DNA of 64,000 nt. It comes from SAR92 clade bacterium H921 (GTDB lineage Bacteria > Pseudomonadota > Gammaproteobacteria > Pseudomonadales > Porticoccaceae). Shown piece after piece: positions 9,771 to 39,412 of this stretch. The stretch is from NCBI GenBank assembly GCA_025153755.1, contig JAOALD010000003.1:434001-498000 (forward strand), read 5' to 3'. The notes under the pieces were generated by a model, which was not told the origin of the DNA, ran no database searches, and saw only the letters and a list, made by a program, of their open reading frames with translations. Position 1 is the first letter of the stretch. Each line of letters begins with the position of its first letter. Made by a program: the position numbers and the translations under genes.

Positions 9771-11024
9771 TTAGGCATTTAGTCCATCATCGACCTTTGG
9801 CTGGATAGCATCTTCGCGCAAGATCACAAACCACATCATCAAGTTGCTGACGCACAAGTAAAGTAACCCAGTATTGAATAGAGCACTGCTAATCAAAGCT
9901 GTCTTGAAAAGACTGAAGATAATAACCAGAGTCACACATAGACGTATAGCTTCCATAATTCTCACATGCCCACCACCATCTAGCACCATACCAATAACCA
10001 CCACGGTTATTATCTGGACAATTGTTGTGCCAAATATTAGCCAATAGGACCCTTCCAACAAATGTAATGAGGTCCAAAAATAGAGTCCCGAAACAAGTAA
10101 GTACTGGACAAAAATAACTAGATTCGAAGAGACACTCAACTGCCGGTTGTATTTCTCAAACTGCTCTAAATTGGTTTTTTGTTGAGGATATCTTGCGGCC
10201 ATATCCTCGGGCCGCCAACCGGTTTTAGCCCAGAAAATGCGCAGCTTATCGCGCCATAATTTGGTTCGCCATGCATCGCTCAACATGGTGACAAAAATAT
10301 GGACATTAGCCCAGGCCGGATTCCAGCTACGCAATGGCACACGAATGCCATAAATTGGTGCTTCCTGATAATCTTCTTCTTTGAAGGTGCCAAAAAGACG
10401 GTCCCAGACAATGAGAACACCGCCGTAGTTTTTATCGATATATTGCTCATTCTGAGCATGGTGGACCCTATGGTTAGAGGGTGTAATCAAAAACCACTCC
10501 AATACCCCGAGTTTTGGAATATGCTGGCTGTGCACCCAAAACTGGTAGATCAGATGGGCCGAGGCAATGCTGACATACATAGCAATAGGCATGCCCAAAA
10601 TAAAGCAGGGAATAAAGAAGATCCAGGTGGTAAAAAAGCTGGTGCTGGTTTGGCGCAGTGCAGTGCTTAGATTATAGTCCTCGCTCTGGTGATGCACCAC
10701 ATGGGAGCCCCAAAAGAACTGGCGCTCATGACTAATCCGGTGAAACCAATAATACAAAAAATCATAGATCAGCAGACCAACTATCCAGTGGCCAGTATTT
10801 TGACTATCGAACAATCCCAGAGAATAGTGCTGTTCTATTTTAACAAAGACAATATAACCAACACTTAGAAAGATAAATTTGGTAACCACACTTAGCAGAC
10901 CAAGACTTAGACTATTGATGCTGTCATTGAACCTATAGGTATTCTTACCTTTAAGCCAGCCCCAGCAAAACTCTAGCACAATAAGTGCTATAAAGACGGG
11001 TACGGCATAGGGGACAAAATTCAT
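9771..11024 (-). CDS. Sterol desaturase / fatty acid hydroxylase family, alkylglycerol-monooxygenase-like
   Basis: Integral membrane di-iron hydroxylase of 417 residues with several hydrophobic segments in the N-terminal half and a second set near the C-terminus (about 310-405). The three histidine clusters are present: HRISH (H95, H99), HVVHH (H108, H111, H112) and HRVHH (H185, H188, H189). The stretch after the second cluster, EDYNLSTALRQ, is the hallmark of the alkylglycerol monooxygenase (AGMO/TMEM195)-like branch, which cleaves ether lipids. Activity as a true ether-lipid monooxygenase is inferred. It is monocistronic as far as can be seen, with tRNA-Ala downstream and gltX upstream on the same strand. 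Confidence 0.85.
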   Translation of the reverse strand: MNFVPYAVPVFIALIVLEFCWGWLKGKNTYRFNDSINSLSLGLLSVVTKFIFLSVGYIVFVKIEQHYSLGLFDSQNTGHWIVGLLIYDFLYYWFHRISHERQFFWGSHVVHHQSEDYNLSTALRQTSTSFFTTWIFFIPCFILGMPIAMYVSIASAHLIYQFWVHSQHIPKLGVLEWFLITPSNHRVHHAQNEQYIDKNYGGVLIVWDRLFGTFKEEDYQEAPIYGIRVPLRSWNPAWANVHIFVTMLSDAWRTKLWRDKLRIFWAKTGWRPEDMAARYPQQKTNLEQFEKYNRQLSVSSNLVIFVQYLLVSGLYFWTSLHLLEGSYWLIFGTTIVQIITVVVIGMVLDGGGHVRIMEAIRLCVTLVIIFSLFKTALISSALFNTGLLYLCVSNLMMWFVILREDAIQPKVDDGLNA

Positions 11025-11117
11025 GACACACCTTTTTAAATTACATTTTTGGCATGCTTAAATACTAGCACCTCTCACACCGAAATGCTGAATATTCAAT
11101 ATGGCTAGTTGATGGGT

Positions 11118-12599
11118 TTATTCCAACTGCTGATAAGCTTTTTCCAACTTTTTAAGTTTCTTTTTACCTACACCACCTAGCAAGTCGATAGCGTAACGTA
11201 ACCGCGCGCGGGACATATCGGCGCCCAACAAATTCATTGAGTCTATAACCGAGATTGACGCGCTACTGCCGGCAATGGCAATAAATAACGGAGCAAGAAA
11301 TGGCTTGAGCTTTAATTCCATGGCGTCGGCAATGGTTTTTAGGGCATCAAAGATATTGTCCCGGTCCCAGTGCTGCACAGATTCTAATCGCCATAGGGCA
11401 AATTGCAGCACCTCTAATAGCTGGTCTTCGTTCATTCCCCCCGACTTTAGATCTTCTTCGGTAATAGGCAACATACCTGATACCAGATAATTACCTAGGG
11501 GTGCCAGATCAGAAAAGGTTTCCATACGCTGACGAGCAAAGGGTAGAAAGGCTTTCAAGGTATCGCGGTTAAGCGCCCAATCATGCAGACGATCAGCCAA
11601 CTGCTCATCACTTAGGTCTTCGCGTATCCACATTCCATTTAGCCAACTGAGCTTCTCGACATCAAACACTGGACCACCCAGAGACACTCGCTTGATATCA
11701 AACACCTCGAGCATCTGCTCGAGGGTAAATTTCTCACGCTCATCGGGCATGGACCATCCCATGCGACCTAAATAATTAAGTAGTGCTTCAGGCAAATAAC
11801 CCATACGCTGGTAATAGAGGATACTGGTAGGATTTTTACGTTTGGACAACTTACTCTTGTCGACATTGCGCAGCAACGGCAGATGACAGAATACCGGACA
11901 GTCCCAACCAAAATATTGGTACAGTAAAATATGCTTTGGGGCAGAATTAATCCACTCTTCGCCACGAATCACATGGCTAATTTCCATAAGATGATCATCT
12001 ACCACATTGGCGAGGTGATAGGTTGGCATACCGTCCGCTTTAAGAAGAATCTGCAGGTCAATCTGTGTCCAATCAATACTAATCTCGCCACGCAGCATAT
12101 CGGTAAAAGTACACTGCCCTGCCCTTGGTACTTTCATACGCACAACATGAGGCTCACCCGCTACCAGACGCTCAGAGGCCTGTGAATCAGTCAGATGCAT
12201 ACAGTGACCGTCATAGCCAAGTTGCTCCTTATTTTCCATTTGGGTTTTGCGCAGTTCATCAAGTCGCTCTGAAGTACAGAAACAACGAAAAGCGTGGCCG
12301 CTAGCAAGAAGTTGATCTGCATGTTGGCGATAGATATCCGACCGTTCGCTCTGACGGTAGGGTCCTTTTTCGCCACCTTTATCCGGGCCTTCGTCCCAAT
12401 CAAGCCCCAACCAATGGAGTGCATCAAGAATAGCTTTCTCGGATCCCGCTGTGGATCTAGCTTGATCTGTATCTTCGATACGCAATAGAAACTGGCCGCC
12501 GAGACTTTTGGCAAATACCATATTGAATAGGGCCACATAGGCAGTGCCGACATGGGGGTCGCCAGTCGGAGAAGGGGCGATACGGGTACGAACAGTCAT
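11118..12599 (-). CDS. gltX: Glutamyl-tRNA synthetase
   Basis: Class I aminoacyl-tRNA synthetase charging tRNA-Glu in the cytoplasm. The HIGH-equivalent motif [13 protein letters not shown] is at residues 9-21 and the KMSKS-equivalent KLSKRK lies near 247-252. Length (493 residues) is normal for bacterial GltX, with the C-terminal anticodon-binding helical domain from about residue 330. It starts at an ATG directly at the conserved [14 protein letters not shown]-terminus. No second partner gene is adjacent. Confidence 0.96.
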
Positions 12600-12742
12600 T
12601 TAGTCTTCCAAAAATTAACACACTTTAATATTAACCTCATTATACGGGTTCTAACGCGCCTTCTGTCACTATCTATCGAGTCTCCGTAAAAAAAACTATG
12701 AGCTTGAATATTTAGGCTAAATTAATAGGACAATATCAATAT

Positions 12743-12752
12743 TGGTATACCA
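12743..12752. promoter_or_regulatory. TGGTATACCA palindrome upstream of usp gene
   Basis: A perfect 10-bp palindrome TGGTATACCA about 165 bases upstream of the universal stress gene. The same half-site TTGGTAT recurs in the larger inverted repeat 63 bases further on, suggesting a repeated binding site for one regulator. The regulator is not identified. Confidence 0.4.
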
Positions 12753-12814
12753 GCCATAGCCAAAAACCATGGAAAATCACCTCTACAGATCAATGTATAT
12801 CTTGGTTATACTGT

Positions 12815-12846
12815 TTTGGTATGATTTAATTACAGAACATACCAAA
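12815..12846. promoter_or_regulatory. TTTGGTATG...CATACCAAA inverted repeat
   Basis: Two perfect 9-base arms, TTTGGTATG (12815-12823) and CATACCAAA (12838-12846), separated by 14 AT-rich bases, lie 69-100 bases before the universal stress gene start. No T-run follows, and it sits upstream of a gene, so an operator is more likely than a terminator. It shares TTGGTAT with the palindrome at 12743-12752. Confidence 0.5.
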
Positions 12847-12915
12847 TGAGCATATATTTACTATTTTTGCCTATGCTTAAGCAATTTAAGACAGTGAGAT
12901 ATCAAGGAGAGCACA

Positions 12916-13743
12916 ATGTCTGAACAAGAAAAATTCTTTGTAGTCGTCAACCCAACGCTTGACGAACATGTTGCCTTAGATCGGGCTATTATTACCGCCC
13001 AACTGATGACGCCACGGCCTAAAATTTATGTCTTCGTTGCCATTGACCACGATAGTGTCGATATGAGTCCGAGCAATGATAATATTTATCGCAATACTGA
13101 CTGGTTTGATGAACAGATCCACAGCCGCCTTAAAGACGCTGGTCTTGAATATCAGATCGAAATTTCCTGGAGCGATCATTGGCAGAAAGCCATCATGCAC
13201 TCTGCGGAAAAGGTTGGTGCCACGCGTATTATTATTCGTGCGGGTAAGCCTAAAACAAGTAGCCGCTTTGGATTTACCGAAAACAAATGGAAACTATTTA
13301 AACGCGCCCTGTGCCCCATACTACTGGTTCGAGATGGCGCGGCACCAGCACGAAAAGTGGTGTTGGCTGCGGTAAATTTTCAGGCGAATCGAGACCAGCA
13401 ACAAAAGCTCAATAGTAATATTCTAGCTAGGGGTAAGGCGCTGGCAGACAGTTATGGCGCTGATTTTCATGTGGTCAATGCCTATCTCGACTCAATGCTC
13501 TACCCTGACAGAGGACGGCTAGCGAGAGAAACTGGCTTGGATTCACAGAATATCCATGTGGTTCAAGGCTACACAGATGAAGCCATTGCCAAGGTTGCAA
13601 AAGAGGTGAGTGCCGATGTGGTACTGATTGGAACCCTAGGTCAAAAAGGCATGACAAAAACCATTCGGGGTAACACAGCCGACCGAGTTATATCAGCACT
13701 GGATGTCGATGTGGTGGTCATTAACTCTGAGTATGAGAGCTAA
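12916..13743 (+). CDS. Tandem-domain universal stress protein (UspA family)
   Basis: A 275-residue protein made of two UspA-like domains (about residues 1-145 and 150-275), similar to E. coli UspE-type tandem proteins. The second domain carries the ATP-binding pattern G-x2-G-x9-G-N/S/T, seen as GTLGQKGMTKTIRGNTADR near residues 238-256. The first domain keeps the fold pattern but a less clear nucleotide motif. Such proteins support survival under stress or low oxygen; specific role here is unknown. It is a single-gene unit with a hairpin terminator at 13772-13803 and unusual inverted repeats upstream. A good AAGGAGA ribosome site supports the start. Confidence 0.9.
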   Translation: MSEQEKFFVVVNPTLDEHVALDRAIITAQLMTPRPKIYVFVAIDHDSVDMSPSNDNIYRNTDWFDEQIHSRLKDAGLEYQIEISWSDHWQKAIMHSAEKVGATRIIIRAGKPKTSSRFGFTENKWKLFKRALCPILLVRDGAAPARKVVLAAVNFQANRDQQQKLNSNILARGKALADSYGADFHVVNAYLDSMLYPDRGRLARETGLDSQNIHVVQGYTDEAIAKVAKEVSADVVLIGTLGQKGMTKTIRGNTADRVISALDVDVVVINSEYES

Positions 13744-13771
13744 TAAAACACCTCATCTAAGGATTGCCAAC

Positions 13772-13803
13772 AAAAAGGGAGGAGTTCGCCCTCTCCCTTT
13801 TTT
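13772..13803 (+). terminator. Rho-independent terminator after usp gene
   Basis: AAAAAGGGAG, a short GC-containing loop, then CTCCCTTTTTT: a compact hairpin followed by a six-T run, 28 bases after the stop codon of the universal stress gene. Confidence 0.85.
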
Positions 13804-13886
13804 GTGACCTATTGTTGGTTTTTTTCTGAACCTAACGGTCATCTGTAATACATGTATTGATATCCACCAAGAAACTGTAATGTTAG

Positions 13887-14663
13887 CTAGACTAACTGGC
13901 GTACTTCTGAAGTCTGAGCACACTGACTCGATATGGTTTGCTGATCCAATATTTTTATACGCCCAGTCACAATGCTGCCAGACTCACCGGCTACAACTCG
14001 CAGTTCGCTAAAAATACAGCCTGACATCTCATTGGCCGCTCGACGCTGTAGCACGGCATTATTTCCCAGTTGTAGATCGAAGGCTGTGCCTGATAACACT
14101 ACTCTAAGATCAACAACCTCAATCACAGGGGACCTATCTGGAACCTGCAATACATTAAATAACACCTGCCCAACAACTAACTCAATTTTGAGTGTTTCAA
14201 TACTATAATTATTATTTGACTTGGTGGCGATATGCAGGTGTAGCAATGAGCTATCAGACAAAACCAAGTTGGGCTGTTCTCTCGGGATAATTTGATAGTG
14301 ATTTTTTGCGAGGGGCAAAAGCGATATGTTTAATATAGCACTGAGTATTACTAAGATGGCAACTACAAAAAGGCATGCCCAAATAAGTTTCCTTTTCCGA
14401 TGTTGACGCCATGCTAATTGTTTAGCTGTATGCTGGTTGAATTTTGGGGCAAGGCGCTTAACTTCATCTAGTGCCCAGGGCTTAAGCTCATCCATCTGAT
14501 CACTCTGATGACTAAAATCAGGTTTGACTTTTTGCTGATGTAAACATTCTTCACTCCAGCAACTAGCGAATTTGCTCTCAGTATCACTTTTATCCTGAGC
14601 CTTTAAGCAAACCGGCCATTTAGACAGTATCTTTCTAAAATTAATACTCGTAACCTTGACCAT
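13887..14663 (-). CDS. FecR-like anti-sigma / regulatory membrane protein
   Basis: A 258-residue protein with a cytoplasmic N-terminal part, one membrane segment (about residues 93-115) and a periplasmic part resembling the FecR domain: GQVLFNVLQVPDRSPVIEV followed by the GTAFDLQ strand that matches the family's GTxFxV pattern. The start overlaps the upstream ECF sigma gene by 23 bases, so both are co-translated and this protein probably controls that sigma factor. Unlike most FecR systems there is no TonB receptor gene next to it. The N-terminus holds two cysteines near 35-40 and does not clearly match the usual FecR N-terminal domain. Confidence 0.68.
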   Translation of the reverse strand: MVKVTSINFRKILSKWPVCLKAQDKSDTESKFASCWSEECLHQQKVKPDFSHQSDQMDELKPWALDEVKRLAPKFNQHTAKQLAWRQHRKRKLIWACLFVVAILVILSAILNISLLPLAKNHYQIIPREQPNLVLSDSSLLHLHIATKSNNNYSIETLKIELVVGQVLFNVLQVPDRSPVIEVVDLRVVLSGTAFDLQLGNNAVLQRRAANEMSGCIFSELRVVAGESGSIVTGRIKILDQQTISSQCAQTSEVRQLV

Positions 14664-15213
14664 CGAAGCGACGAAACTCCGCAGTAGCCTGCATGATTCG
14701 GACCCGAGCGAGCTTTATATGCTCCTCTACTGAGCGATCAGAGAGGGCTAACTTTTTGGCAATCGCGCGGCAACTAAGTCCTTCGAATCGATACAATAAG
14801 AATATGTAGCGCGTCTTTTCTGAGAGATGCACCAATGAATCTTTAATTGTTTCTACCTTTAACTCACCTAAAAGACTTTCATAGACTGACCGACCTTCAA
14901 AGTCTGTCGCCTGCGCATAATCCTGAGCGCTCGCAGCCTGGCGCTTGCACAACACATTGATAGCCAATCTCACTGCCATATTGAAAAGATAACTGCGGAG
15001 ATTGCCATCGTCTCGGTTGTGCTTAAGACGGCATAGCCTCTGAAACGCGTGCTGTGCGATCTCTTCAGCTACATCTTTATTGTCCATTTTACTAACCAGC
15101 AATCGGCGTAATTCATCTGATATGTCTCGATACAAGTTAGTCCGCTCATCGCTAATACCTTTCCCATTAATTCCCTCAATCTGTACCTCTAGGTCTTCCT
15201 TAGTGTTACGCAA
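14641..15213 (-). CDS. ECF-type RNA polymerase sigma factor (FecI-like)
   Basis: A 190-residue sigma-70 family protein of the extracytoplasmic-function type. Region 2 spans about residues 25-95 (QHAFQRLCRLKHNRDDGN...SYLFNMAVRLA) and region 4 about 130-180, with a helix-turn-helix GLSCRAIAKKLALSDRSVEEHI. It is followed, with a 23-base overlap, by a FecR-like membrane protein, the expected anti-sigma partner. No iron-siderophore receptor or transporter adjoins it, so the signal and regulon are unknown. The gene is divergent from the molybdenum hydroxylase genes, which could be a target; that is inference. Confidence 0.88.
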   Translation of the reverse strand: MRNTKEDLEVQIEGINGKGISDERTNLYRDISDELRRLLVSKMDNKDVAEEIAQHAFQRLCRLKHNRDDGNLRSYLFNMAVRLAINVLCKRQAASAQDYAQATDFEGRSVYESLLGELKVETIKDSLVHLSEKTRYIFLLYRFEGLSCRAIAKKLALSDRSVEEHIKLARVRIMQATAEFRRFDGQGYEY

Positions 15214-15593
15214 TCTGTCTCTCCCAAATCCTTTTTGCCAACGCCAATCTCGCAGTTAGCATCTGCTGAGCATCCTTGTCCCAGCCAGAAACTTCTCTCA
15301 AAACGAACTCAGTCACTAAAGTTGATACTTTGCCATATATTGTTAGAGCACATAGGTGTGTTTTACTTGATCATCCAGAAAATTTAGCTTTGTATGATGT
15401 AGATCAAGCCTTTTGCTAGCTAAGCAAAATATATGAGATACTAAAATTTAAGCCGGAGTTGTGAGCACAAAATGGTGGCTGAACAAACCTAAATATTCCC
15501 TGCGTATCGAGGGGCATCCCGCGCTAATACCAGCAACTTTAGATGTCCTCATATGCAATAGGGTAACACTCAAAAAATAATGGGATTGCTTAA
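15214..15593. other. Divergent promoter region, sigma factor / molybdenum hydroxylase
   Basis: A 380-base AT-rich gap with no supported gene. It holds a near-consensus FNR/Anr-type site at 15394-15407 (annotated separately), whose GATCAAG arm also forms a 7-bp inverted repeat with CTTGATC at 15366-15372. A TACTAAAATTTAA sequence at 15439-15451 recurs elsewhere in the window. The ribosome site for the + strand gene is weak (GGGATT). Confidence 0.4.
15394..15407. promoter_or_regulatory. FNR/Anr-like box
   Basis: ATGAT-GTAG-ATCAA matches the FNR/Anr consensus TTGAT-N4-ATCAA at nine of ten positions. It lies about 190 bases before the [2Fe-2S] subunit gene and about 180 before the sigma factor gene, a long distance for direct activation, so function is uncertain. 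Confidence 0.35.
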
Positions 15594-34310: not shown

Positions 34311-35102
34311 ATGTCAAAAAATATCGAGCAGTCCCCAGAGCAGTTGCGTCAATTAATCCGCAGTGGCGAACATCAGGGCAATACCTCTGGATTTTGTCAG
34401 GGGTTTGTACAGTGTAATTTGGTTATTTTACCGGCCGAAAATGCCGCCGACTTTTTAGAATTTTGTGAATTAAACCCCAAGTCCTGCCCTCTAATCGCTA
34501 TGTCGGAACCAGGTGAAGGCAATATCGCTAAGCTTGGTGCTGATCTAGATATTCGCACCGATATCCCGAGATACAAAGTGTTTGAAAATGGCCTTGTGAC
34601 CAGCGAGGTAAATGATATCTCATCACTTTGGCGTGATGATCTGGTGGCTTTCTTACTCGGCTGCTCATTTTCATTTGAAGAAGCACTATTAGCCAATGGC
34701 CTAGAGGTTCGCAATGTTACCGAGGAGCGAAATGTGCCGATGTATATCACTGACATCGACTGCGTTCCCGCCGGACCCTTTGGTGGCAAAATGGTTGTCA
34801 GTATGCGCCCCTTCGTCCCGGCTGACGCCCTCCGTGCTGCAGAAATATGTGCGCGGTTCCCCGCAGTCCATGGCGAACCAATCCACTATGCCAATCCGCA
34901 AGATATTGGGGTTACAGATATTGCTCAACCTGACTATGGCGATGCGGTAACTATTAAAAAAGGTGAGCATCCTTTATTTTGGGCCTGTGGAGTGACACCG
35001 CAGGTGGCAATCGAAGCGGCCAAGCTGCCCTTTTGCATTACCCACAGTCCAGGATGCATGCTGGTAACTGATATGAAGAATAGTGACCTGGCTGTGAATT
35101 GA
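34311..35102 (+). CDS. DUF1445 family protein, D-glutamate cyclase N-terminal-domain homologue
   Basis: A 263-residue putative hydro-lyase of the DUF1445 family, a family also found as the N-terminal half of mammalian D-glutamate cyclase (DGLUCY), which converts D-glutamate to 5-oxo-D-proline. Family landmarks seen: [11 protein letters not shown] (about residues 28-38), [12 protein letters not shown] (77-88), [13 protein letters not shown] (114-126), [19 protein letters not shown] (144-162), FWACGVTPQ (223-231) and [11 protein letters not shown] (243-253). GGAGGGAAG gives a strong ribosome site. It opens the same-strand run with 5-oxoprolinase genes and a DUF4392 gene (the other DGLUCY half), which strongly suggests a role in D-glutamate/5-oxoproline metabolism. 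Confidence 0.88.
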
Positions 35103-35200
35103 TACCACCTACTTCCTGCGGCCACAAACAAGGCTGCGAGTTACCCAGAACAATTGCAACAGATTAAAAATATTACAAAAATAACCGTTAAGGAAATAAT

Positions 35201-35935
35201 ATGTCATTACGTTTAAATTGTGATCTCGGCGAAAGCTTCGGCGCTTGGAAAATGGGCCTCGATGATCAAGTAATGCCATTTATTGACCAGGCAAACATAG
35301 CCTGCGGTTTTCATGCCGGCGATCCAATCGTGATAAAGAACACGCTGCTCTCTGCCAAGCGCCATAATGTTATGGTTGGCGCACATCCTAGCTACCCAGA
35401 CCTTGCTGGCTTTGGTCGTCGTTCGATGAAACTCCCGGCCACAGAAATTATTGCCATAGTTGAGTACCAAATAGCCGCGCTGGCGGGCATGGCAGAAAAT
35501 ATTGATACGCCTATCACCTATGTCAAACCCCATGGGGCCCTGTATAACGACATGATGGCTAATGGCCATATTCGAAGTGCAATTATGGAGGCAATCGCCG
35601 GATCACATTTACCTCTGGCTTTTATGCTACAAGCAACTCCGGAGGCTGAGACACATCGCCAAGAGGCCGAAATGTTTGGCCTCGAAGTTATGTTTGAAGC
35701 CTTCGCTGATCGTTGTTATGACGACAATGGAGCACTGTTATCAAGGGCTAAAGAAGGTGCGGTGCACAGTAGAGAAAAAATGCTCGCTCAAGTAGCTCAG
35801 CTAAAAAATGACAGTAGCGTCACCACTGTCAGCGGCCATAGGCTAGAGCTACAGGCTGATTCACTCTGTGTGCATGGCGACAATCTCGAAGGGGTTAGTG
35901 CAATCGAAGAGATTCGCCAACTTGTCAACTCATGA
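35201..35935 (+). CDS. pxpA: 5-oxoprolinase subunit A (LamB/YcsF family)
   Basis: Component of the bacterial ATP-dependent 5-oxoprolinase PxpABC that opens 5-oxo-L-proline (pyroglutamate) to L-glutamate. The 244-residue length and motifs match the LamB/YcsF family: LNCDLGESFGAW (residues 4-15), ANIACGFHAGDP (30-41), GAHPSYPDLAGFGRR (60-74), YVKPHGALYNDM (107-118) and EAFADRCYDDNG (about 166-177). An AAGGAA ribosome site precedes the ATG. Its stop overlaps pxpB's start by 4 bases, as do the next two junctions, so four proteins are translated from tightly coupled frames. Confidence 0.95.
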   Translation: MSLRLNCDLGESFGAWKMGLDDQVMPFIDQANIACGFHAGDPIVIKNTLLSAKRHNVMVGAHPSYPDLAGFGRRSMKLPATEIIAIVEYQIAALAGMAENIDTPITYVKPHGALYNDMMANGHIRSAIMEAIAGSHLPLAFMLQATPEAETHRQEAEMFGLEVMFEAFADRCYDDNGALLSRAKEGAVHSREKMLAQVAQLKNDSSVTTVSGHRLELQADSLCVHGDNLEGVSAIEEIRQLVNS

Positions 35936-36627
35936 CTGACCAACAATACACAATCTCCATTGCCGGAGAGAACTCACTCATTGTTTACTTTGCCGACAAA
36001 CCAACTCCGACCATCGCCGCGCATATTGCTCAAACTGCCCAACAGTTACGCGACTCTATTGCTCAGGTATTGATTGATCTAGTGCCATCCTATGGCTCAT
36101 TGCTGGTCATCTACAATCCTCTGCAAACTGATCACTATGCTGTTCGTGCTGCTATTCGCCAGACTCTGAGTAATCTAACCGCCCATAACCGTCAAACAGA
36201 GGGCTCATTAGTTAGCCTGCCGGTCTACTATGGTGTCGAAGCAGGACCGGACCTACAGGCATTAGCGGACAGGGCAGGACTCACCACAGAGCAAGTTATT
36301 AGCATACATCAGCAGACTGAATACCGTGTGTATGCCATAGGCTTTGCTCCTGGCTTTGCCTATCTGGGTGAAGTGGATCCACGTATTGCAACTCCCAGAC
36401 TTGCCACACCAAGACCGAAGGTGCCCCGCGGCGCTGTTGCGATAGCCGACCGCCAAACTGCCGTCTATCCCGCACAGTCCCCCGGGGGCTGGAATCTGAT
36501 TGGCCTGTGTCCAAAGCGTATGTTTGATCCGCATGCCACACCCAACATGCCGATTCAAGTTGGTGATCGCGTGCGCTTTACAGCCATAGATAAACAACAG
36601 TTTCTAGATCTGGGTGGGGAACTATGA
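35932..36627 (+). CDS. pxpB: 5-oxoprolinase subunit B (KipI/allophanate hydrolase subunit 1-like)
   Basis: A 231-residue KipI-family protein that acts with PxpA and PxpC. The family signature VYAIGFAPGFAYLGEVDPRI (about residues 131-150) followed by TPRPKVPRGAVAIADRQTAV is intact, and the end region GWNLIGLCPKRMFDP fits. It overlaps pxpA and pxpC by 4 bases on either side. The usual bacterial order is often pxpB-pxpC-pxpA; here pxpA comes first. Confidence 0.95.
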   Translation: MTDQQYTISIAGENSLIVYFADKPTPTIAAHIAQTAQQLRDSIAQVLIDLVPSYGSLLVIYNPLQTDHYAVRAAIRQTLSNLTAHNRQTEGSLVSLPVYYGVEAGPDLQALADRAGLTTEQVISIHQQTEYRVYAIGFAPGFAYLGEVDPRIATPRLATPRPKVPRGAVAIADRQTAVYPAQSPGGWNLIGLCPKRMFDPHATPNMPIQVGDRVRFTAIDKQQFLDLGGEL

Positions 36628-37577
36628 GCGGTCTAAGAGTTCTTCAACCCGGGATCCTCAGCCTACCTCAAGACAGCGGGCGATTTGGTATGCACGGCAT
36701 AGGCTTAACAACGGGGGGGCCTTTGGACTGTAATGCCTTTCGTTGGGCAAATCGTCTGTGTGGCAATGACCAGTCCGTTAGTGTTATTGAAGTGACTATT
36801 GGTGGCTTGATATTAGAGTCATTGGTTAAAACAACGATCGCATTAACTGGCGCTAAGATACCGTTGATGATTAACAAAAAACCCGTAGCACTATGGCAAA
36901 CTCATGGGGTAAATCCAGGTGATAGAATTGAACTTGGTTTCGCCACAGCGGGCAGTCGCGGCTATCTGGCTGTTGCCGGAGGTTTTGCGATTGCGCCAAT
37001 TTTTAACAGCGCGTCAACAGTGCACCGTGAATCTCTGGGCGGACTATGCCAAGATGGCAGCCAATTACAAGCTGGCCAACTACTCCCCTGTCACCAGTTA
37101 AAGAAACACCTACTTGATCACAGAATACCCCCTCATCTTGTGCCCGATTATACTGGTAACAGTGCTCTTTTAAGAGTGGTACTAGGCTATCAACAAAACG
37201 CCTTTACCAGCCTACAAAAGCAATTATTCTTTACCTCGCACTATAAGGTAAGCGCAAGCAGCGACCGCATGGGCTATCGCCTTGAGGGTGCCAATATAGC
37301 CCCGAGTATCGATGGTATTCTGTCTGAAGGTATATGTATGGGCGCTATTCAAGTACCCGCAGATGGCCAACCCATCATTTTACTCAATGACCGCCAAACC
37401 ATTGGTGGCTATCCCAAGCTGGGGTCAGTATTCTCGCTGGACATAGGCGCGCTCGCGCAGCTTGTGCCCGGTGGCATAGTTAATTTTGAAACTATTAGCA
37501 TGGATCAGGCACATAACTTGCTCGCGTTATATGAGCATAAATTCAATAGTACTCAACTACAATTAGTCGCTAAATGA
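36624..37577 (+). CDS. pxpC: 5-oxoprolinase subunit C (KipA / biotin-dependent carboxyltransferase family)
   Basis: A 317-residue member of the KipA/allophanate hydrolase subunit 2 family. Landmarks: VLQPGILSLPQDSGRFG (about residues 5-21), the GGPLDCNAFRWANRLCGN stretch (30-47), SRGYLAVAGGF (about 110-120), SDRMGYRLEG (about 213-222) and PADGQPIILLNDRQTIGGYP (about 247-266). With PxpB it forms the KipIA-like complex that couples ATP use to ring opening. Coupled by 4-base overlaps to pxpB and to the DUF4392 gene. Confidence 0.95.
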   Translation: MSGLRVLQPGILSLPQDSGRFGMHGIGLTTGGPLDCNAFRWANRLCGNDQSVSVIEVTIGGLILESLVKTTIALTGAKIPLMINKKPVALWQTHGVNPGDRIELGFATAGSRGYLAVAGGFAIAPIFNSASTVHRESLGGLCQDGSQLQAGQLLPCHQLKKHLLDHRIPPHLVPDYTGNSALLRVVLGYQQNAFTSLQKQLFFTSHYKVSASSDRMGYRLEGANIAPSIDGILSEGICMGAIQVPADGQPIILLNDRQTIGGYPKLGSVFSLDIGALAQLVPGGIVNFETISMDQAHNLLALYEHKFNSTQLQLVAK

Positions 37578-38434
37578 GTTATCTACGTATCAGCCAGCAG
37601 ATCGAGGATTTGCTCACCGCACGCAATCTGCGCCACATGCAAACTCTGCAAGCTGCGTTGAGTCCAGGCTACTATTATCGCGCCGCTCAGATGCTGCACA
37701 ATATTAGCGGCCATGTCTTAATTGGTACCGGCTTCCCAGTTAACCATACCTATGAAACCGACGGTCCGGTTGGCGCAATAGCACTTTACCGAGCATTAGA
37801 GTCTCTAGGTGCAACCCCCATAATAGTATGTGGTGCTCCATTGGCAGATGTCATAAATGATGATTTTCGTGTACACAAAATCACCGTAGGTGAACCGCAA
37901 ATAAGTGTTCGTGAAGCACAGCTGGCGATCAATGAATACCAGCCGAATTTAGTTATCTCAATCGAACGCCCCGGCATGGCGGCCGATGGTAATTATTACA
38001 ATATGCGTGGTGAAAACATTAGTGCGCGCTGTGCCAGTTTTGATTATTTCCTTAATCTGGCCAACTGCCCAACCATAGCTATAGGTGATGGAGGCAATGA
38101 AATTGGTATGGGCAATATTACAGATAGTCTAAAAGATCTTGATATAATATCGTCGGCTACTCGCTGTGATGAACTGTTAATTGCCGATGTATCCAACTGG
38201 GGAGCCCATGGATTACTGGCAATGCTATCCGTTATCTCAGGAACAGATATGCTTGCCGAATGGGATAATTTAGCCATTTTAGGCTACCTCTCCGAGCGCG
38301 GCAGCGTCGATGGCGTGACTAGACAAAACACCTTGACCGAAGATGGATTAAACGCTGACATTAGCGAGCAACTGATTGATGAGCTGAAAAAAATAATACA
38401 AAAATCACTACAACAGGAAATTATTCTGAATTAA
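37574..38434 (+). CDS. DUF4392 protein, D-glutamate cyclase C-terminal-domain homologue
   Basis: A 286-residue protein of the DUF4392 family, the domain forming the C-terminal half of mammalian D-glutamate cyclase DGLUCY. Conserved segments are GTGFPVNHTYETDGPVGA (about residues 51-68), SIERPGMAADGNYYNMRGE (about 131-149) and IAIGDGGNEIGMGNI (about 168-182). The start codon overlaps the pxpC stop by 4 bases, so it is translationally coupled to 5-oxoprolinase. Together with the DUF1445 gene at the head of the run it reconstitutes both DGLUCY halves as separate proteins. Whether one or both are needed for cyclisation in bacteria is not known to me. Confidence 0.88.
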   Translation: MSYLRISQQIEDLLTARNLRHMQTLQAALSPGYYYRAAQMLHNISGHVLIGTGFPVNHTYETDGPVGAIALYRALESLGATPIIVCGAPLADVINDDFRVHKITVGEPQISVREAQLAINEYQPNLVISIERPGMAADGNYYNMRGENISARCASFDYFLNLANCPTIAIGDGGNEIGMGNITDSLKDLDIISSATRCDELLIADVSNWGAHGLLAMLSVISGTDMLAEWDNLAILGYLSERGSVDGVTRQNTLTEDGLNADISEQLIDELKKIIQKSLQQEIILN

Positions 38435-38554: not shown

Positions 38555-39412
38555 ATGAGTATTGCATTTTTAGATGGCACCTATTTACCGCTGGAGGAGG
38601 CCAAAATATCCCCCATGGATAGAGGGTTTTTATTTGGTGATGGTATTTATGAGGTAGTGCCCTCCTATGCTGGAAACATGGTTGGCTTTGCTCCACATAT
38701 TGCGCGAATGCAAGATGGCTTGGCTGCGGTGGGAATTAATCTAGACTGGTCTGAGACTGACTGGGCTGAACTGTGTAACCGCCTTATCAATGAAAATGGT
38801 GCAGGCAACCTAGGTATCTATTTACATGTAAGTCGAGGCGCAGACAGCAGGAGGTTTCATGGTTTTCCAGTGAATATTGCGCCTACCGTATTTGCCTTTG
38901 CTTTTGATATTCCGCCACCGCCAGTAGCAGATAAAGCTCGAGCCAACAGTTACAGAGTATCTAGCGCTCGAGATCTTCGCTGGGAGCGCTGCCAGATTAA
39001 ATCTACTGCTCTGCTTGGCAATGTACTTCATTTTCAGCAGGGCTATGAAAACGGCCACGATGAAACAATTCTGTTCAATGCCAATAATGAACTCACCGAA
39101 GCCAGTGCCTGCAATGCATTTATTGTCAAAAATGGTACTGTTATTACACCTCCATTAGACAATCAATTATTGGCCGGCATTACCCGACATATTGTTCTCG
39201 ACATACTGCGCAGAGACGGCTCTATTGCTGTCGAGGAGCGCGTAGTCACCATGGACGAAGTAACCAGTGCAGATGAAGTCTGGATCACCAGTTCCTCAAA
39301 AGAAATTGCCCCAGTAATAGAGATCGATGGCGTTGCGGTTGGCGACGGTAAAGTCGGCGATGTATGGCTTGCCGCTCAGGCTCTATACTCTGCTGGTAAG
39401 TTTAACTACTGA
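38555..39412 (+). CDS. D-amino-acid aminotransferase (class IV PLP enzyme)
   Basis: Fold-type IV aminotransferase of 285 residues, D-alanine aminotransferase type. The start region AFLDGTYLPLEEAKISPMDR is followed by the class-typical GFLFGDGIYEV (about residues 28-38), the catalytic PLP lysine lies in CQIKSTALLGN (about K148), and ELTEASACNAFIV (about 182-194) binds the cofactor. It interconverts D-alanine and 2-oxoglutarate with pyruvate and D-glutamate. Branched-chain L-aminotransferase activity is an alternative, but proximity to alanine racemase and D-glutamate cyclase homologues supports D-specificity. It begins 120 bases after the DUF4392 gene. Confidence 0.87.
   Translation: MSIAFLDGTYLPLEEAKISPMDRGFLFGDGIYEVVPSYAGNMVGFAPHIARMQDGLAAVGINLDWSETDWAELCNRLINENGAGNLGIYLHVSRGADSRRFHGFPVNIAPTVFAFAFDIPPPPVADKARANSYRVSSARDLRWERCQIKSTALLGNVLHFQQGYENGHDETILFNANNELTEASACNAFIVKNGTVITPPLDNQLLAGITRHIVLDILRRDGSIAVEERVVTMDEVTSADEVWITSSSKEIAPVIEIDGVAVGDGKVGDVWLAAQALYSAGKFNY

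Follow-up and report, generated by a model that had tools for sequence, protein, structure and literature searches.

Gene content and coupling of the locus

SAR92 is an abundant marine clade. In the genome of SAR92 clade bacterium H921 (GenBank assembly GCA_025153755.1), we analyzed a 64,000-nucleotide stretch of contig JAOALD010000003.1 (positions 434,001 to 498,000; hereafter the window), which carries a run of forward-strand genes in which a DUF1445 gene and a DUF4392 gene, corresponding by family to the two domains of mammalian D-glutamate cyclase (DGLUCY), enclose the 5-oxoprolinase genes pxpA, pxpB, and pxpC. A sequence-only reading of the window had placed this run at positions 34311 to 38434, and its coordinates, strand, and families hold: all five genes pass the curated Pfam cut-offs on which our family assignments are based, including the two DUF proteins, whose profile matches reach 210.8 and 242.7 bits. 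That reading ended before a transaminase-like gene and the alanine racemase gene alr, which lie directly downstream of DUF4392 on the same strand. The genes are as follows, in window coordinates and with lengths in amino acids (aa):

34311..35102, + strand: DUF1445 protein (PF07286, D-Glu_cyclase), 263 aa; Pfam 210.8 bits, cut-off 25
35201..35935, + strand: pxpA, 5-oxoprolinase subunit A, 244 aa; PF03746 (LamB/YcsF) 288.3 bits
35932..36627, + strand: pxpB, 5-oxoprolinase subunit B, 231 aa; PF02682 235 bits
36624..37577, + strand: pxpC, 5-oxoprolinase subunit C-like, 317 aa; PF02626 273.9 bits
37574..38434, + strand: DUF4392 protein (PF14336, GLUCM-like_C), 286 aa; Pfam 242.7 bits, cut-off 27.9
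38555..39412, + strand: class IV aminotransferase, D-amino-acid-transaminase-like, 285 aa; PF01063 172.4 bits
39451..40533, + strand: alr, alanine racemase, 360 aa; TIGR00492 376.4 bits, cut-off 168

Among NCBIfam models, the DUF1445 protein matches NF003969 ("putative hydro-lyase") at 395.8 bits against a cut-off of 324, PxpA passes NF003816 (331.6 bits; cut-off, 213), and PxpB passes TIGR00370 (165.4 bits; cut-off, 145.55). PxpC lies over the cut-off of TIGR00724 (241.7 bits; cut-off, 230.2) and below that of NF045499, PxpC_5OPro (201.9 bits; cut-off, 500). Relatives of the DUF1445 protein with solved structures are 3DB9 and 2PIF.

The sequence-only reading had the DUF4392 gene tied to pxpABC by three 4-base overlaps, and we read ATGA at each of these junctions (pxpA/pxpB, 35932 to 35935; pxpB/pxpC, 36624 to 36627; pxpC/DUF4392, 37574 to 37577). 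The DUF1445 gene is uncoupled, with a 98-base gap before pxpA. DUF1445 and DUF4392 are two genes 2.5 kilobases apart and not one polypeptide, and a genome search found a single copy of each in the 2.57-megabase genome of this organism. Promoter-like sites show no excess (10 versus 11.7 expected); terminator-like sites number 11 versus 5.9 expected, none of them on the forward strand between DUF4392 and the transaminase gene. In the window, RecQ comes after alr.

Conservation of the cluster and co-occurrence of DUF1445 and DUF4392

A scan with the DUF4392 protein as query, taking one genome per species, recovered 23 contigs; picked by DUF4392 similarity, they measure the constancy of its context and not its frequency. 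Their bearers comprise Porticoccaceae, Bermanella, Marinomonas, Colwellia, other Oceanospirillaceae, and further Gammaproteobacteria and Proteobacteria. Gene order is constant, with DUF1445 present on 21 of the 23 contigs, PxpA and PxpB on 22 each, at least part of PxpC on all 23, and the transaminase on 22; contig ends (L037, L038, and L046) explain the missing DUF1445, PxpA, PxpB, and transaminase genes. The alr gene adjoins the transaminase on 10 of these contigs. The order DUF1445-pxpABC-DUF4392-transaminase thus recurs in other Gammaproteobacteria. Preservation of this order across several families rules out a chance neighborhood.

DUF4392 is scarce overall. Counting the H921 genome each time, it occurs in 3 of 369 sampled genomes of the class, 10 of 398 of the phylum, and 54 of 112 of the organism's own family. 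Both DUF genes are present in 48 of the 112 family genomes and neither in 57; DUF4392 alone is found in six and DUF1445 alone in one. We rejected these seven genomes as exceptions to co-occurrence, as the locus runs into a contig end in every one. The separation of the DGLUCY domains into two proteins, which the sequence-only reading had described, gains support from two genes that co-occur in every family genome with an uncut locus, and because both are present or both absent in all such genomes, a functional bond between them is indicated. In a few of the 48 genomes the two genes lie on separate contigs.

The pxp genes follow a different pattern. PxpA occurs in 79 of the 112 family genomes, 29 of which have neither DUF gene, and pxpABC-transaminase-alr stands without either DUF at 10 loci of the genus, including one in a genome assembled as a single contig; at four further family loci the transaminase and alr occur alone. 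Conversely, DUF1445 and DUF4392 lie side by side with no pxp gene within the stretch read at two loci (L147 and L148), and in Pseudoalteromonas they accompany PxpA, with PxpB and PxpC not at the locus (DUF1445-PxpA-DUF4392-transaminase; L141, 6453 to 9688, and L155, 13457 to 16697). A plasmid search for PxpC returned 742 records, of which the 60 listed include none from Pseudoalteromonas; PxpBC elsewhere on those replicons is possible, and the main chromosomes lay outside this search. L150 (5686 to 10017) is the reverse case, with DUF1445 and DUF4392 beside PxpB and PxpC and without PxpA. The DUF pair and the pxp genes each occur without the other and so behave as two distinct evolutionary units.

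At one further family locus (L125, genome G372), pxpABC adjoins alr in a genome with MurI and with no DUF1445, DUF4392, or transaminase ortholog, and the PxpA frame there is open for 1183 aa. At some of their loci, distant DUF4392 proteins have as neighbors alanine racemase with RidA, an Asp/Glu racemase with a transaminase, or amino acid transporters. On a Bradyrhizobium elkanii plasmid (L146, 6770 to 10349), two DUF4392 genes flank a gene annotated as selenocysteine synthase, between amino acid ATP-binding cassette transporters.

Metal site of the DUF4392 protein and its fusion to PxpC

The PDB relatives of the window DUF4392 protein are 4DWZ, 4FC5, and 5GKX (TON_0340 of Thermococcus onnurineus and like chains; E about 1e-36). 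The TON_0340 metal site consists of Glu59, Asp61, Glu115, Asp157, Glu161, and Asp246, five of which bind two Mn2+ ions directly, and the protein acts in vitro as a Mn2+-dependent phosphatase of low activity, its natural substrate being given as unknown in that paper (PMC5132392). These six acids align to E61, D63, E131, D172, E176, and D257 of the window protein. In an alignment of 69 relatives (61 near and 8 distant; rows covering fewer than 190 positions were dropped), each acid is kept in 60 or 61 of the 61 near rows and in 7 or 8 of the 8 distant rows, all exceptions being gaps.

A single frame encodes both PxpC and DUF4392 in 14 of the 54 DUF4392-bearing family genomes, two of which (G370 and G371) have it truncated by a contig end, and two more family genomes (G392 and G406) have frames long enough for such a fusion. 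In an unrooted DUF4392 tree of 59 rows, which omits short-match rows and loci outside the working list, the 13 fused rows require two changes, forced by well-supported branches; the simplest reading is that two independent fusion events would have occurred. All six metal-site acids are retained in the 13 fused rows.

The transaminase and the supply of D-glutamate

The top NCBIfam models for the window transaminase are D-amino-acid transaminases (D-AAT), matched below their cut-offs (233.6 versus 320 bits and 218 versus 277.45 bits), and the transaminases of four relatives likewise fall below these cut-offs. The canonical D-AAT motif comprises F26, Y31, [VA]33, and [KRPT]35, xYxQ at position 88, and RxH of motif 2 (PMC10003956, Table 2). 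The window protein fits it at F/Y/V/P and at RxH (RFH), with YLH in place of YxQ. Across 76 transaminase frames, motif 1 is F/Y/V/P in 70 and unmatched in 6; motif 2 is RxH in 68, KxH in 7, and unmatched in 1; and the motif at position 88 is YxH in 49, YxQ in 26, and unmatched in 1. Because its best models are D-AAT models matched below cut-off and the YxQ is replaced, we call the predicted enzyme D-AAT-like, a label for what it would work like and nothing further.

Glutamate racemase MurI (TIGR00067) has no match in the H921 genome, which is 98% complete, so that a gap is possible. Over its cut-off, MurI is found in 46 of the 112 family genomes and in none of the 50 genomes of the organism's own genus, and MurD passes in 103 family genomes and reaches 416 bits in H921. 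Another Asp/Glu racemase replacing MurI throughout the genus was considered and rejected, as the racemase family PF01177 passes in only 4 of the 50 genus genomes. The H921 genome itself has a PF01177 match of 24.6 bits, below the cut-off of 31. This match covers about 50 positions of a frame at G000:C1:642844-642987, and comparable matches occur in 42 further genomes of the genus; the weak matches in these 43 genomes (18.6 to 26.9 bits) apparently concern one and the same gene.

With orthology set at a best E value under 1e-60, the transaminase is present in 68 of the 112 family genomes and in 47 of the 50 genus genomes, two of them with interrupted frames. Of the family genomes, 60 have the transaminase without MurI, 38 have MurI without the transaminase, 8 have both, and 6 have neither, and among the 70 better genomes the corresponding counts are 39, 24, 4, and 3. 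Because MurI is not found where MurD is, the transaminase and Alr may make cell wall D-glutamate in place of MurI. A D-amino acid transaminase is said, in the title of a published paper, to complement the loss of glutamate racemase, and a murI dat double deletion reportedly figures in a study of a D-glutamate auxotroph of Staphylococcus aureus.

Several genomes stand apart in this respect. One family genome, 93% complete, has neither MurI nor a transaminase ortholog (G431). Two genomes of the genus that lack a MurI match carry an interrupted transaminase frame (L126, 6932 to 7799, in G425; L089, 6018 to 6882, in G426), reflecting either sequencing error or another source of D-glutamate; in G425 a second transaminase copy and DUF4392 are interrupted as well. 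A second transaminase, 56 to 58% identical to that of the window, lies elsewhere in five genus genomes (G414, G421, G391, G386, and G384).

Genes beside the cluster in relatives

The phylum sample holds five other gammaproteobacterial genomes with DUF4392, and genes of cell wall salvage adjoin the cluster in three of the four loci read. A kinase-MurQ fusion lies beside the DUF pair in L148 and L149 (TIGR00274, 425.6 and 419.7 bits; cut-off, 302), and L150 has kinase and SIS domains. NamZ is present in all three, cut by the end of the stretch in L148 and L150; a GH3 gene and a sodium:solute symporter adjoin the cluster in L148 and L150, an RpiR-type regulator in L148 and L149, and a flavin (FAD)/iron-sulfur (Fe-S) oxidase in L148. 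The fourth locus, L147, shows no salvage gene among the five neighbors scanned (AceK, peptidase M1, a pyridoxal-phosphate enzyme, aspartokinase, and alkaline phosphatase), and the fifth genome (G811) has no DUF1445 or pxp match in the two short stretches read. Both Pseudoalteromonas records read (L141 and L155, of five listed) have GH3 and the FAD/Fe-S oxidase beside the cluster.

Closer to H921, strain HTCC2207 of the SAR92 clade, Porticoccaceae (L040), has a prolyl-tRNA-synthetase-like gene nearby and a lytic-transglycosylase-domain gene just upstream of DUF1445, and a homolog of the latter occupies the same place in L035. Downstream of alr, HTCC2207 carries an Lrp/AsnC regulator and PutA, which takes proline to glutamate (11014 to 15378), with homologs in the same place at the six SAR92-type loci L035 to L040. 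Of the window's own frames, those scanned (19 of the 51 of at least 180 aa, plus two shorter ones) showed no salvage gene.

Proposed function

By family membership, the DUF1445 and DUF4392 proteins represent the DGLUCY domains in two polypeptides, and the cluster, which brings known families together in a new arrangement, likely has some role in D-glutamate metabolism. The best overall explanation of the data, to which we give roughly even odds (about 0.5), is that these genes constitute one D-glutamate/5-oxoproline unit built around cell wall D-glutamate. The proposition that a cyclase-type D-glutamate enzyme operates within a D-glutamate unit appears probable. In this scheme, Alr would convert L-alanine to D-alanine, and the transaminase would likely use D-alanine and 2-oxoglutarate to form D-glutamate, standing in for MurI. 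The transaminase reaction is reversible and is not gated the way MurI is. DUF1445 and DUF4392 would likely form a two-subunit, Mn2+-dependent D-glutamate cyclase, and because transamination lacks such a gate, the cyclase might serve as a valve that stores surplus D-glutamate as 5-oxo-D-proline. PxpABC, with ATP, might then reopen 5-oxoproline on demand or open the 5-oxo-L-proline that forms spontaneously from L-glutamate. These last two steps are less sure, and the surplus valve as the exact role is a tentative proposal, less likely than not. The pxp operon of Bacillus subtilis includes a Mn2+ importer (PMC10448178), a feature that agrees with an enzyme using Mn2+ or might have nothing to do with it.

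The sequence-only reading had proposed a bacterial pathway that cyclizes D-glutamate and then opens 5-oxoproline. A functional bond between DUF1445 and DUF4392 gains support from their co-occurrence, whereas the succession of steps as written is incomplete and not supported: the equilibrium favors the ring and makes cyclization downhill (PMC13274462 quotes a constant, [L-Glu]/[5-OP], of about 0.035), PxpABC is described for 5-oxo-L-proline (PMC13274462), and the cyclase and PxpABC acting on one enantiomer are a futile, ATP-burning loop unless separated in time or substrate.

That loop also weighs against the unit we favor, as do several other observations. The window transaminase stays below the D-AAT cut-offs and lacks the Q of YxQ. 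A MurI match below cut-off (35.1 bits) exists in G386, of the same genus, and PF01177 passes in four genus genomes, H921 not among them. MurI over its cut-off accompanies both DUF genes in 7 of the 48 family genomes that have the pair and does not in 41, of which G441 has a partial match. Outside the family, where 18 cluster-bearing genomes remain from a sample of 25 after removal of 7 that repeat genus genomes already counted, MurI passes its cut-off in 6, and 10 of the other 12, only two of which have a stated completeness, show a racemase-family match below cut-off (20.9 to 42.2 bits), making a different racemase possible in those 10. MurI loss is common among cluster bearers and, given that MurI coexists with the pair or cluster in some genomes, not a requirement. 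All these counts come from related genomes that are not independent trials, and Fisher values overstate their independence. Among distant DUF4392 proteins (about 28 to 36% identity), neither DUF1445 nor pxp appears at any of nine loci, within the stretches read. Finally, the only tested DUF4392 protein, the archaeal TON_0340, gave just weak phosphatase activity, and archaea are said to be without DUF1445 (PMC5132392).

Other functions for the cluster deserve consideration. Peptidoglycan D-glutamate is gamma-linked to diaminopimelate, and the enzyme class of D-glutamate cyclase, EC 4.2.1.48, accepts D-glutamate derivatives. DUF1445 and DUF4392 could together form a putative gamma-D-glutamyl cyclotransferase that releases 5-oxo-D-proline from gamma-D-glutamyl-meso-diaminopimelate (gamma-D-Glu-mDAP) during cell wall salvage, after which PxpABC would yield D-glutamate, the transaminase would convert this to 2-oxoglutarate plus D-alanine, the latter to be recycled by Alr. 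Such a route gives every gene a use and makes the futile loop disappear, and it agrees with the MurQ fusion, NamZ, GH3, RpiR, symporter, and oxidase genes beside the pair in three of the four loci read, with GH3 and the oxidase in Pseudoalteromonas, and with the lytic-transglycosylase-domain gene upstream in HTCC2207 and L035. It sits poorly with the scanned neighbors in L147 and the scanned frames of the window, which include no such gene, with the lack of pxp in L147 and L148, of PxpBC at the Pseudoalteromonas loci, and of PxpA in L150, and with a literature search in which titles and abstract openings gave no report of activity on gamma-D-glutamyl peptides; we consider it unlikely. A broader version seems less likely again: an undescribed, complete salvage route for peptidoglycan D-glutamate, with a two-subunit Mn2+ cyclotransferase, a D-specific PxpABC, and the transaminase and Alr draining the product, which run in reverse would make all D-glutamate without MurI and from which animal DGLUCY would have descended.

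The phosphatase activity of TON_0340 (PMC5132392) and the overlap or fusion of DUF4392 with PxpC could instead point to DUF4392 as a phosphatase-type fourth component of 5-oxoprolinase, which would dephosphorylate gamma-glutamyl phosphate after phosphorylation by PxpBC and opening by PxpA, the roles assumed for these subunits in PMC13274462. The same source assumes that PxpA itself dephosphorylates, and DGLUCY converts D-glutamate (PMC5339696); furthermore, pxpABC occurs without DUF4392 at 10 genus loci and DUF4392 without pxp in the stretches read of L147 and L148. Because DUF4392 tracks DUF1445, its strict partner, more closely than it tracks pxp, we set this idea lower and find it improbable. 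Slightly more doubtful still is a stereo-inversion in which one DUF protein or the other would racemize the C-alpha of cyclized D-glutamate, and PxpABC would take the resulting 5-oxo-L-proline to L-glutamate. Cyclizing and then opening would in this way become productive and permit D-glutamate catabolism, and DUF4392 resembles in sequence a protein that carries an Asp/Glu/hydantoin racemase annotation (PMC5339696). Against it, DGLUCY gave no activity as a glutamate racemase, a result about glutamate and not 5-oxoproline (PMC5339696), the transaminase already removes D-glutamate, and L147 and L148 have no pxp. Least probable in our estimation is ordinary repair, with PxpABC acting on 5-oxo-L-proline and merely sharing an operon with two D-glutamate genes: 5-oxo-L-proline does arise spontaneously (PMC13274462) and pxpA often stands without the DUFs (in 29 of the 112 family genomes), and against this stand the order kept across several families, the overlapping starts, and the PxpC-DUF4392 fusions. 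A D-glutamate/5-oxoproline unit built around cell wall D-glutamate is accordingly the explanation we retain, at the odds given above.

Relation to known systems

Mammalian DGLUCY (C14orf159/9030617O03Rik) has the same pair of domains, with DUF1445 preceding DUF4392 as it does here (PMC5339696, PMC5132392); in the cluster they are two genes with pxpABC between them, and DUF4392 is sometimes fused to PxpC and not to DUF1445. The split itself is already in print as a count: a gut microbiome survey preprint lists 6 split and 0 full-length homologs of GLUCM_HUMAN, and its available sections give counts only, with no tie to pxpABC, a transaminase, or MurI (PMC11580864). TON_0340 (PDB 4DWZ and 5GL2-5GL4) shares the six metal-binding acids of the window protein and differs in being archaeal and studied alone, as a weak Mn2+ phosphatase (PMC5132392).

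Systems in which Dat/D-AAT replaces or backs up MurI likewise draw D-glutamate from a transaminase and Alr; the present case differs in its Gram-negative lineage, in MurI not found over cut-off, and in the cyclase beside the transaminase. In marine D-glutamate metabolism, the DgcN/DgcA system of Pseudoalteromonas sp. CF6-2 is comparable; it reportedly catabolizes D-glutamate through N-acetylation with unrelated genes, and the CF6-2 record also bears a partial version of the cluster. For B. subtilis, we take ycsI to be a DUF1445 gene, and our control genome of that species matches PF07286. Its PxpABC operon shares pxpABC with the window and adds ycsI and the Mn2+ importer YcsG/MntG (PMC10448178); it differs in that DUF4392 was not found in the control genome and that no transaminase or alr is named in the operon in the available sections of that paper. 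Our literature search found no report of this cluster in titles or abstract openings, most subscription papers being outside its reach, and a search combining SAR92 and glutamate racemase retrieved no papers.

Implications

DGLUCY was named from work in mice, and a bacterial version made of two small proteins amid D-amino acid genes makes the enzyme tractable; DUF4392, in turn, is a family whose metal site is solved and on whose substrate there is no agreement. If the complete salvage route considered above were true, animal DGLUCY would be the descendant of a bacterial cell wall salvage enzyme, retained to clear bacterial D-glutamate. For SAR92, the gene content suggests that cell wall D-glutamate is made without MurI, and the cluster would be a candidate route for the D-glutamate of marine organic matter, a hint that this marine SAR92 bacterium deals with D-glutamate in a manner not yet studied.

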